Source: Limnochordia bacterium (GTDB lineage: Bacteria > Bacillota > Limnochordia > Darwinibacteriales > DTU012). From it: DNA of 60,738 bases. The notes below the pieces were generated by a model. That model saw only the letters and a program-made list of their open reading frames with translations, searched no databases and was not told where the DNA came from. The position numbers and the translations under genes are program-made. Of this stretch, positions 13,341 to 59,703 are shown one piece after another. The stretch is from the NCBI GenBank assembly GCA_007116145.1, contig SKJB01000023.1, positions 1-60,738 on the forward strand, read 5' to 3'. The first letter of the stretch is position 1. The number at the start of each line of letters is the position of its first letter.

Positions 13341-13390
13341 TACGTAACAAAAAAACACCCTCTGTTTAGGGGGTGTTTTTTTGTTACGTA
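13341..13390 (-). terminator. Terminator of rplJ-rplL
   Basis: A perfect 20-bp inverted repeat (13341-13360 with 13371-13390) with a 10-nt loop begins right after the rplL stop codon. GGGTGT followed by seven T residues within the 3' arm gives a classical intrinsic terminator. It separates rplJ-rplL from the rpoB promoter. Confidence 0.92.
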
Positions 13391-29939: not shown

Positions 29940-29983
29940 ATTATGGGCGTCACCAAACATTTACGTTTGGTGACGCCCATAAT
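29940..29983 (-). terminator. Terminator of the ctsR-clpC operon
   Basis: A perfect 19-bp stem (29940-29958 with 29965-29983) and 6-nt loop lie 4 nt after the clpC stop. On the minus strand it ends AATTTTCG, so the T run is short but the stem is exceptionally long. Confidence 0.8.
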
Positions 29984-56872: not shown

Positions 56873-57757
56873 ATGCAGTTAGGAGACTTAAAGAATCATA
56901 TCTACCCGAATTTCCCCATGAAGTACGCTACAGCGCTCGGCGTTGGCGGTCCAGCAGACTATCTGTTGCGTCCATCGAAAAAGGAGCACATTCAATTAGG
57001 ATTACAATTAGCTCATATTTATAACTTACCTGTGACACTGATTGGTTATGGCACAAATCTGCTTGTCACAGACAAGGGCATTCGCGGTCTAGTAATTCAA
57101 CTAGCGGACACTTTCGCCCAAGCAAGTATTACTAACAATACGCTAACGGCTAGTGCAGGTTGCCTATTTGGATCCGTCAGCAAATTAGCGGCTCATCACT
57201 GCTTGTCTGGATTAGAGTTTGCAGTAGGAATCCCCGGCAGCTTAGGGGGCGCGGTTTTTATGAATGCTGGTGCTTATGATGGCGAAGTCGGACCCTTAGT
57301 CAAGCAAGTAACTTGGGTAACAGCTGATCAGATAGGAGTTTGGCAGAACTCCGACTACCAATACTCGTATCGCTATAGCAATGTGCAGGATCAAGGAGTC
57401 GTAGTAGCCGATACCACACTGGAATTGGTGCCCGGAATAAAAACAGAAATCCTTGCAAAAATGGAAGACTTCCAAGAAAAACGGCGCACTCGCCAACCGC
57501 TGGAATATCCAAGTGCAGGTAGCACCTTCAAACGACCGCCCGATCACTACGTGGGTCCGATGATTGAGGCCCTGAGCTTAAAGGGTTATCAAATTGGAGG
57601 GGCAAAAATCTCCACAAAGCACGCGGGATTTATCATCAACTGCGGTGGTGCTACAGCTGCCGATATTTTAAGTCTTATCAAACATGTTCAAGTCAATGTT
57701 AAAGCTAAATTCGGTCTTGATTTAGAACCAGAAGTACGCATTATTGGAGAACAATAG
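56873..57757 (+). CDS. murB: UDP-N-acetylenolpyruvoylglucosamine reductase
   Basis: MurB makes UDP-N-acetylmuramic acid using NADPH and FAD. The 294-residue product has the FAD-binding GYGTNLLV and SGLEFAVGIPGSLGGAVFMNAGAYDGE regions, the catalytic serine in SAGSTFKRP, and the C-terminal Glu in LEPEVRIIGE. It is the short form typical of Bacillota. The start is ATG 56873 with AGGAGG 8 nt upstream. A TATAAT at 56759-56764 may be its -10, but no -35 is clear. Confidence 0.96.
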   Translation: MQLGDLKNHIYPNFPMKYATALGVGGPADYLLRPSKKEHIQLGLQLAHIYNLPVTLIGYGTNLLVTDKGIRGLVIQLADTFAQASITNNTLTASAGCLFGSVSKLAAHHCLSGLEFAVGIPGSLGGAVFMNAGAYDGEVGPLVKQVTWVTADQIGVWQNSDYQYSYRYSNVQDQGVVVADTTLELVPGIKTEILAKMEDFQEKRRTRQPLEYPSAGSTFKRPPDHYVGPMIEALSLKGYQIGGAKISTKHAGFIINCGGATAADILSLIKHVQVNVKAKFGLDLEPEVRIIGEQ

Positions 57758-57760
57758 AGA

Positions 57761-57782
57761 CCAAGGAGTGATGACTCCTAGG
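57761..57782 (+). terminator. Hairpin after murB
   Basis: CCAAGGAGT pairs with ACTCCTAGG (one mismatch) around a 4-nt loop, starting 4 nt after the murB stop. There is no T tract. Its right arm ACTCCTAGG recurs at 57917-57925. Confidence 0.45.
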
Positions 57783-57813
57783 AACCTGATCGGAAAGTGC
57801 TTCTTCGTTTAGC

Positions 57814-57916
57814 AAACTCGAAAAGTTACGTTTTCAACACAAGTTAGCGTAATCAGAAACAACTAAAACCAAGTGGAGTTTCGCATAATGCATCGCTTCG
57901 ATGACTTTTCGAGTTT
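57814..57916. ncRNA. Candidate structured RNA with three-way junction
   Basis: A perfect 13-bp inverted repeat (57814-57826 with 57904-57916) encloses 77 nt. Directly inside its left arm TACG (57827-57830) can pair with CGTA (57848-57851). Directly inside its right arm CATCG (57891-57895) pairs with CGATG (57899-57903). The stems abut, as in a three-way junction. Neither strand shows a T tract. It lies between convergent murB and hydrogenase genes; a bidirectional terminator or unknown RNA are both possible. Confidence 0.4.
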
Positions 57917-57960
57917 ACTCCTAGGCCTCTATTGTGCATATACTGCATATACATCCTTAC

Positions 57961-59703
57961 TTAGTGCTTACTCGTTTCGCTTTCAGGCAATGGCTCTGCA
58001 TTTGTAGCGCCTTGCTCCGGCCCCTTATAATTTGTGTGCAATAAGTGATGAGAAACCTCACTTAAAGGGTGCTGTAAAAACGTCTCGTATAAACGTTGTA
58101 CCGCAAGATTTTCATGTGAACCTGCTATTACTGCAGTTTTATCCAGATCCTTAAGCGAAATTCGCCGTTTCTTAATGATCTCTTGCCTTTGTTGTTGATC
58201 AATTACAGTCGGTTGCCCACCACCATTAACACACCCACCAGGACAAGCCATGATCTCAACAAAGTGAGCCGGCATCTTTCCAGCAGCAATATCATCTAAA
58301 ACTCGTCTTGCTTGCTTCAGTCCACTAACAACTTTCACCTTTACTTCTGATCCATCCACAAACACCTTTGAACCCGCATCCGATTCTTCTAGTTTGACTC
58401 GGTCAGGATAAGCCGCTAGTAGTGTACGCAGGGCAGCTTCCATCACACCGCCACTTTGACCAAACAATACCGCACCCCCAGAAGACATTCCCATGGGAGC
58501 ATCAAACTCTTCATCCTTTAGTTTCGCTAATTGCAATCCAGCTTGTTTCATCAATAATGCTAACTCACGCGTTGTTAGTACTACATCCACATCCTGGTAT
58601 CCACTATCATTCATCTCAGGCCTAGCCGCTTCATACTTCTTAGCAGTACACGGCATAATAGAAACCGTCTTGATGCTTGCGGGGTCAATCCCTTCAACTT
58701 GCGCCAAATAGGTTTTCGCCAAAGCTCCAAACATTTGTTGTGGTGACTTACAGGTTGATAAATACTTTGTTAAGCTTGGATAGTGCTCTTCGACAAAGCG
58801 AATCCACCCTGGACTGCAGGAAGTTAAAAGAGGTAAGTCATTGGTCTTGATGCGCTCTAACAACTCATGACCTTCTTCCATGATCGTAACATCAGCTGTA
58901 AAGTTTGTATCAAAGACATGATTAAACCCAAGCCTGCGCAACGCTGTCACCATTTTCCCAGTAACATCAGTTCCTGCAGGGAGACCAAATTCCTCACCAA
59001 GGGCTGTACGCACAGCTGGAGCTACTTGTACCACTACATGAGCATCGCTACTTAGCATATCCCAGACTTGATTAACATCATTACGCTCATAAAGAGCACC
59101 AACTGGACAGACTTGCACACACTGCCCACAAAACGTACAAGAAACCTGGTCTAAACTCTGATGCCAAGCCGGAGAGATTACCGTATCGATCCCGCGACCG
59201 AGAGCCCCTAGAATCGTCATCCCCTGTACTTCTTCGCACACCGCAACACAACGCCGACAAAGAATACACTTGTTTACATCGCGATAAATTACCGCTCCTT
59301 CGTCGATCACAGCCTCTTCGTAGTTTACTGTCTCCACATCACGCACACCCAACTCTTGCGATAGGTTCTGTAGGCCACAATTTTGACTACGCACACACTG
59401 AAGACAATCTTGAGGGTGAGCGGATAACATCATTTGCACATTCATCTGTCGAGCCTCTAACACCCGCTTTGTGTGGGTCTTAACCACCATTCCTTCTTCA
59501 GCGGGTAGCACACAAGACGCCGGTAAGTTTCGCCGTCCTTCCACCTCTACAACACAAATTCGACAAGCACCTATTTCATTACTGTCCTTTAGATGACAGA
59601 GTTTTGGTATTTCTACCCCAATTTCCTTCGCAGCCTCTAGTACAGTGGTGCCAGCTGGTACAGAAACACTTTGACCATTAATAGTTAAAGTAATCATATT
59701 CAC
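57961..59703 (-). CDS. [FeFe]-hydrogenase catalytic subunit (HydA/HndD type)
   Basis: The 580-residue protein carries a full set of clusters. A [2Fe-2S] site uses Cys36/47/50/64, and a His-ligated [4Fe-4S] uses His96 with Cys100/103/109. Two [4Fe-4S] sites lie at 146-156 and 189-199. The H-cluster has L1 TSCSPGW (294-300), L2 MPCTAKK (350-356) and L3 MACPGGC (485-491). With the NuoF-like partner it resembles NAD(P)-linked, possibly electron-bifurcating hydrogenases. The start is GTG 59703 with AAGGTGA 6-7 nt upstream. Confidence 0.95.
   Translation of the reverse strand: MNMITLTINGQSVSVPAGTTVLEAAKEIGVEIPKLCHLKDSNEIGACRICVVEVEGRRNLPASCVLPAEEGMVVKTHTKRVLEARQMNVQMMLSAHPQDCLQCVRSQNCGLQNLSQELGVRDVETVNYEEAVIDEGAVIYRDVNKCILCRRCVAVCEEVQGMTILGALGRGIDTVISPAWHQSLDQVSCTFCGQCVQVCPVGALYERNDVNQVWDMLSSDAHVVVQVAPAVRTALGEEFGLPAGTDVTGKMVTALRRLGFNHVFDTNFTADVTIMEEGHELLERIKTNDLPLLTSCSPGWIRFVEEHYPSLTKYLSTCKSPQQMFGALAKTYLAQVEGIDPASIKTVSIMPCTAKKYEAARPEMNDSGYQDVDVVLTTRELALLMKQAGLQLAKLKDEEFDAPMGMSSGGAVLFGQSGGVMEAALRTLLAAYPDRVKLEESDAGSKVFVDGSEVKVKVVSGLKQARRVLDDIAAGKMPAHFVEIMACPGGCVNGGGQPTVIDQQQRQEIIKKRRISLKDLDKTAVIAGSHENLAVQRLYETFLQHPLSEVSHHLLHTNYKGPEQGATNAEPLPESETSKH

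Follow-up and report, generated by a model that had tools for sequence, protein, structure and literature searches.

The window, a 60,738-nt stretch of DNA at positions 1 to 60,738 of contig SKJB01000023.1 of the Limnochordia bacterium assembly GCA_007116145.1, carries a set of nested inverted repeats between two convergent genes, murB (ending at 57757) and hydA, which encodes an FeFe hydrogenase (ending at 57961; Pfam). The original prediction offered these repeats as a structured small RNA, a bidirectional terminator or the remnant of a small mobile element. We find that they are two unrelated things stacked on one another, a mobile element and a presumed target hairpin split by it. The element is very probably a non-autonomous miniature inverted-repeat transposable element (MITE). 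A CTAG-preferring transposase most likely mobilizes it in trans, and the copy in the window appears to have entered an existing hairpin. The earlier suggestion of a small mobile element is thus supported by the scattered copies, their terminal inverted repeats and the CTAG found at either end, but "remnant" is not, as the window copy keeps both ends. The nested repeats are thereby explained without a new class of RNA.

Using window positions 57650-58000 as query against the host's own assembly (2,760,707 bases in 164 contigs), we obtained at least 32 matches to the element, self included, at E ≤ 1e-3, with 40 of 41 candidates scored. The bare element as query gave 35 own-genome matches at E ≤ 0.01. 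The search for further genome copies that accompanied the original prediction as a check therefore came out positive. Some loci yield two pieces, so that places are fewer than matches; 29 stretches besides the window were fetched. All non-self matches were confined to 57775-57935, and therefore this unit, not murB or the hydrogenase, is what is repeated. The matched pieces were 77 to 98% identical to the window copy, and many were fragments. Two pairs of copies, those of C65 and C98 and those of C138 and C69, were identical at 121 of 121 positions, and such young copies occur side by side with decayed ones. Six contigs (C65, C98, C47, C119, C138 and C69) begin or finish inside the element; because a recent repeat is expected to break a fragmented assembly, the element accounts for these six contig ends.

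Aligned copies start with CTAG-GAACCTGCTCGGAAA and finish with CTTTTCGAGTTTACTC-CTAG, and the element ends GAACCTGCTCGGAAAG and GAGTAAACTCGAAAAG are imperfect inverted repeats of each other. Allowing up to 3 mismatches, CTAG plus the left-end pattern was found at 25 own-genome places, compared with 2 for a reversed control, and CTAG plus the right-end pattern at 19, compared with none. The separate null for end recognition was drawn from the same loci, includes true copies and is a rough guide only. Matches to the end patterns also pointed to 14 further loci, among them two two-ended copies (L042 and L047) and one incomplete copy (L045), the remainder being single left or right ends, some perhaps by chance. 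Nine two-ended copies measure 44 to 210 bp including both CTAG sequences (window, 147; C86, 210; C2, 175; C57, 119; C8, 108; C5, 99 and 44; C99, 85; C27, 50), all below 500 bp, in an element that carries no transposase. Eight of them have CTAG on both sides; the left flank of the C99 copy is CTAC. Among the right ends listed, 19 of 21 have CTAG and two have CAAG.

In long versions some 60 additional bases form a module near the left end; short versions are devoid of the interior. In the short versions of C57, C155 and C5 the sequence jumps from the outer terminal repeat to the start of an inner copy of that repeat, equivalent to 57812-57826 of the window; in C57 and C155, CTAGGAACCTG runs directly into CTCGAAAAG. 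These junctions are consistent with recombination between the outer and inner terminal-repeat copies.

The boundaries of the parts of the window copy and its surroundings are as follows.

57778-57924, 147 bp: miniature element including both CTAG sequences; a dispersed repeat copy.
57782-57920, plus strand: element body, 139 bp between the CTAG sequences, with boundaries taken from aligned copies.
57778-57781, no strand assigned: left CTAG (presumed target copy); eight of the nine two-ended copies read CTAG here and one reads CTAC.
57921-57924, no strand assigned: right CTAG (presumed target copy); CTAG at 19 of 21 right ends listed, CAAG at the other two.
57782-57797, plus strand: left terminal inverted repeat, GAACCTGATCGGAAAG, from the counts of CTAG plus the left-end pattern.
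57905-57920, minus strand: right terminal inverted repeat, reading GAGTAAACTCGAAAAG on that strand, from the counts of CTAG plus the right-end pattern.
57812-57826, plus strand: inner terminal-repeat copy, containing the left arm of the 13-bp stem (57814-57826).
57751-57769, plus strand: left arm of the presumed pre-insertion hairpin, beginning within the final murB codons, 17 of 19 positions paired with 57917-57935.
57770-57777, plus strand: loop GATG of the presumed pre-insertion hairpin, then ACTC, the first four bases of its right arm, from the joined flanks.
57925-57935, plus strand: outer segment of this presumed hairpin's right arm, shifted away by the element, from the joined-flank fold.

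The ORF list contains no open reading frame (ORF) of 60 or more amino acids in the window copy or anywhere between murB and the hydrogenase.

Re-inspection of the sequence showed the inverted repeats where the original prediction had placed them. The perfect 13-bp inverted repeat lies at 57814-57826/57904-57916, the side stems TACG/CGTA and CATCG/CGATG are present, and both direct copies of ACTCCTAGG are found, at 57774-57782 and 57917-57925. A perfect 13-bp inverted repeat with arms at most 100 nt apart exceeds chance for the window, as among 100 dinucleotide shuffles of the entire window only 3 contained any; the window has five perfect inverted repeats with arms at most 100 nt apart, and this one is the shortest of the five. 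The single-strand fold of the originally proposed interval (57761-57925) is moderately stable, with a z score of -2.48 for the plus-strand RNA (2 of 200 shuffles equally good) and -1.64 for the minus strand (11 of 200); the 147-bp unit folded as DNA gave -1.71. Enclosing everything is an outer inverted repeat absent from the original prediction, 57751-57769/57917-57935, with 17 of 19 positions paired. Inclusion of these outer arms brought the z score to -3.67, a value reached by none of 200 shuffles. The 13-bp stem is formed by the inner terminal-repeat copy and the right end rather than by the pair of terminal repeats. In the fold as a whole, the 13-bp stem would derive from the element's own repeats, and the target hairpin, now split, would supply the outer stem. 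As a warning for similar cases, a strong single-strand fold can combine two events superposed on one another, namely a transposon end and a target hairpin split by insertion.

The second component emerges when the element is removed and one CTAG is left. The flanks then join as ACAATAGAGACCAAGGAGT-GATG-ACTCCTAGGCCTCTATTGT, a hairpin with 17 of 19 pairs and a 4-nt loop, and the 94 joined bases fold at -32.5 kcal/mol with a z score of -4.46. Because the joined flanks form a hairpin, the window copy was most likely inserted into an existing one. On the simplest reading, the murB-hydA hairpin existed first and the element entered at the CTAG of its 3′ arm. Of the 9-bp direct repeat ACTCCTAGG, CTAG alone fits a target copy. 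The right ACTC is part of the element and is found again in further copies, whereas the left ACTC is flank; the last G lies in the element in the left copy of the repeat and in the flank in the right copy. On this reading the repeat amounts to CTAG, with ACTC and G agreeing by chance. Elsewhere in the window, at 13345-13386 and 29941-29982, are two hairpins of this geometry that are not split (18 of 19 pairs, 4-nt loop), both situated between ORFs of at least 150 amino acids; these are probably terminators.

Mechanistically, a DDE transposase that prefers CTAG would most likely act on the element in trans, presumably by cut-and-paste transposition, and the window copy would have entered the hairpin between convergent murB and hydA at a CTAG of its 3′ arm. 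The candidates are an IS5-type transposase, with a 4-bp duplication of CTAG, and an IS630-type transposase, with TA duplicated within CTAG. IS630 is said to prefer TA within CTAG, a report credited to Tenzen and Ohtsubo in 1991 (cited in PMC2170065), and such a preference would yield the same junction letters as those of the window element. The element is likened to IS630 by its target letters. In the host genome, neither DDE_3 (PF13358) nor DDE_5 (PF13546) was matched, and around its three DDE_Tnp_1 (PF01609) matches no stretch of more than 12 bases agrees with the element. These three transposase ORFs are L056, L057, which appears as two overlapping ORFs, and L058; we take them to be IS4-like, IS1634-like and IS1182-like, respectively.

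Several observations weigh against a CTAG-directed MITE that landed in a hairpin. Three of the nine two-ended copies have one weak end: the C8 copy retains nine letters of the left end (CTAGGAACC) and then diverges, the 99-bp copy of C5 retains eleven letters of the right end (TTTACTTCTAG), and the left end of the 85-bp copy of C99 has 5 mismatches. The end-search patterns include CTAG, which biases the CTAG counts upward. A 4-bp duplication of CTAG and a 2-bp duplication of TA are indistinguishable from the junctions, and because the CTAG target is palindromic the junction letters cannot separate the candidate transposase types. No autonomous partner with the element's ends was found in the four families searched (PF01609, PF13358, PF13546 and PF01797), in a draft assembly that breaks at repeats and from which a multi-copy parent may be missing. 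When the flanks of eight two-ended copies were joined (the ninth, the 85-bp copy of C99, was left out of this folding), only the window copy gave a notable hairpin, the z scores of the other seven ranging from -1.42 to +1.47. No true empty site was seen in the murB 3′ regions of eight family relatives. murB itself was found in all nine family genomes, own included; in five of the eight relatives the visible sequence extends about 1.5 kb past the 3′ end of murB, with no gene for the hydrogenase or the NuoF-like neighbour, and in the other three a contig end cuts the view. Finally, with ORFs called mechanically, without a gene finder, around 32 copies, just 16 lie wholly between ORFs, 14 overlap an ORF edge and two lie inside an ORF (a right fragment in C159 and a left fragment in C103).

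We also considered a general targeting of hairpins by the element, which is unsupported, as 7 of the 8 joined copies are without a notable hairpin.

Outside the host the element was not matched in any of eight family relatives, in any of 35 other genomes of the order (these eight included) or in any of the 397 other genomes of a 398-genome phylum sample, with at most two candidates scored per genome. Plasmid and phage collections contained no match at E ≤ 0.01, and an exact 24-base internal pattern was absent from genome_contigs, a collection from which the host's own and very near genome records are possibly excluded. No paper describing the element family was found in literature queried by description rather than by sequence. 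By the collections searched the family is new; the kind of mobile DNA, a MITE, is ordinary. The best 80 relatives of the hydrogenase in genome_contigs, where own and very near records are again possibly excluded, were all at most 55% identical, and most were titled Bacillota or clostridial groups, so that the host is probably a sparsely sampled lineage of Bacillota.

Among the alternatives, the one that fares best, and is still unlikely, has the repeat co-opted as a bidirectional terminator or a barrier to transcription between murB and hydA. The site does lie between convergent genes, the two halves of the split hairpin are still able to pair with the element enclosed between them, and two further long hairpins of the same geometry stand between long ORFs of the window. 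However, a consensus scan of both strands of 57650-58050, which covered the locus as it stands, found no terminator-like site with a T run; elsewhere the repeat also lies between tandem and divergent ORFs; and nothing assigns a stop of transcription to the element over the older hairpin. No promoter-like site was found in 57650-58050 either. The bidirectional terminator of the original prediction is thus not supported within the element, where the scan returned none, while the apparently older hairpin around it, now split, might act as a terminator or as a barrier to transcription.

A structured non-coding RNA with a three-way junction, retained for its RNA function, is very improbable. The z scores of -2.48 for the originally proposed interval and -3.67 with the outer arms would suit such an RNA, as would pairing in 93.8% of cells across 7 distinct copies. 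By eye, the C35 copy even lengthens the main stem by CAG/CTG where others mismatch, a two-sided change just outside the counted pairs. Yet two-sided changes occurred in none of the 22 counted pairs, and shuffling the 7 distinct copies altered no measure, so that the compensatory changes sought as a check on the original prediction were not found. Of about 30 loci in one genome, this test could use 8 copies that retain both arms (7 distinct), the others having an arm missing, being cut by contig ends or being too decayed, and it has little power, since the young copies hardly differ from one another. Length variants also speak against the junction: the internally deleted copies of C2 and C35 are without the TACG/CGTA helix, and the shortest (C27 and the 44-bp copy of C5) are, by eye, without the interior and both side stems. 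The remaining ends of these two shortest copies can, again by eye, still pair as terminal repeats do. Rfam gave no match at E ≤ 1 in 57500-58200, the 35 other genomes of the order have no match, and the outer stem lies in the flanks of the window copy with no counterpart at seven other copies. The three-way-junction RNA of the original prediction is hence not borne out by the paired positions, by Rfam or by the deleted copies, which lose the side stems.

A palindrome of the REP/REPIN type moved by a Y1 (IS200/RAYT-like) transposase is scarcely credible: the genome has three Y1_Tnp (PF01797) matches (L075, L076 and L077), the third of them at the end of contig C155 about 0.8 kb from an incomplete element copy, but the element terminates in linear inverted repeats, flanked on either side by CTAG, and the fuller Y1 loci, L075 and L076, match the element over at most 10 consecutive bases. 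As a possible parent of the MITE, the Y1 transposases were rejected, having no adjoining element ends. At the Y1 loci, contigs C92 and C155 terminate in the same sequence.

Returning to the MITE interpretation, in 6 of the 32 copies an ORF has as its stop codon the TAG of a terminal CTAG, the left one in C138, C69, C2, C155 and C85 and the right one in C5. Four of the six ORFs matched Pfam, as alanine racemase (alr), MreB (mreB), ExbD (exbD) and a phage-type integrase, and two had no Pfam match. The C-terminal domain of the alanine racemase extends to residue 372 of the 373-residue ORF. Insertion at a stop-codon CTAG does not alter the protein, so the pattern could be due to selection alone. 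The element exemplifies a MITE in which the letters of the target also serve as stop codons. A broader scenario, which we offer tentatively and consider rather doubtful, is that this lineage-private family settles harmlessly at C-TAG gene ends and occasionally in intergenic hairpins, so remodeling 3′ untranslated regions genome-wide by splitting terminators and adding stems while proteins stay untouched, and that it may have altered the transcriptional insulation of murB and the FeFe hydrogenase. Nothing was retrieved from the literature on insertion into terminators, with a very narrow query that lends this little weight.

By its anatomy the window element fits the description of MITEs given in the pertinent part of a review (PMC10969869): less than 500 bp, terminal repeats, direct repeats that fade with age, stable folds and truncated versions. 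MITEPsy1 of Pseudomonas syringae pv. phaseolicola, in the account that PMC3189936 gives of its insertion sites, duplicates CTAG or YTAA; an origin from ISPsy2 is suggested there, and the element is listed as "IS5?". It differs in host and in end sequence, its left end starting GGAAGGTC (PMC3189936). MITEPsy1 was moreover caught moving in the laboratory and has a proposed parent (same account), whereas for the window element we infer mobility and found no parent. IS701 elements, in the lines on target duplication in PMC2266710, duplicate four bases. QMITE2 of Coxiella burnetii resembles the window element in having full-size and shortened copies and stable single-strand folds, as set out in the relevant parts of PMC5896051 and PMC10969869, and the latter review places QMITE2 copies primarily in 3′ untranslated regions. 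The flanking repeats of QMITE2 are 7 to 9 bp, in contrast to CTAG here, and a small RNA arises from one QMITE2 copy (PMC5896051, in its sections on these features); the window element was studied as DNA sequence.

Three loci combine element sequence with other inverted repeats. At about 1640-1672 of L029 an incomplete element copy is followed within about 10 bases by a 30-bp perfect palindrome, AGCATGACCAACGGATCCGTTGGTCATGCT. In L051, from 319, the element's left end and part of the long module merge into another inverted repeat, GGGTCCGACCC...GGGTCGGACCC. On the reverse complement of L043, from 2471, an element-like left end leads into another long hairpin, TCTTGCTATACAATC...GATTGTATAGCAAGA, which may be a second miniature element with common ends.
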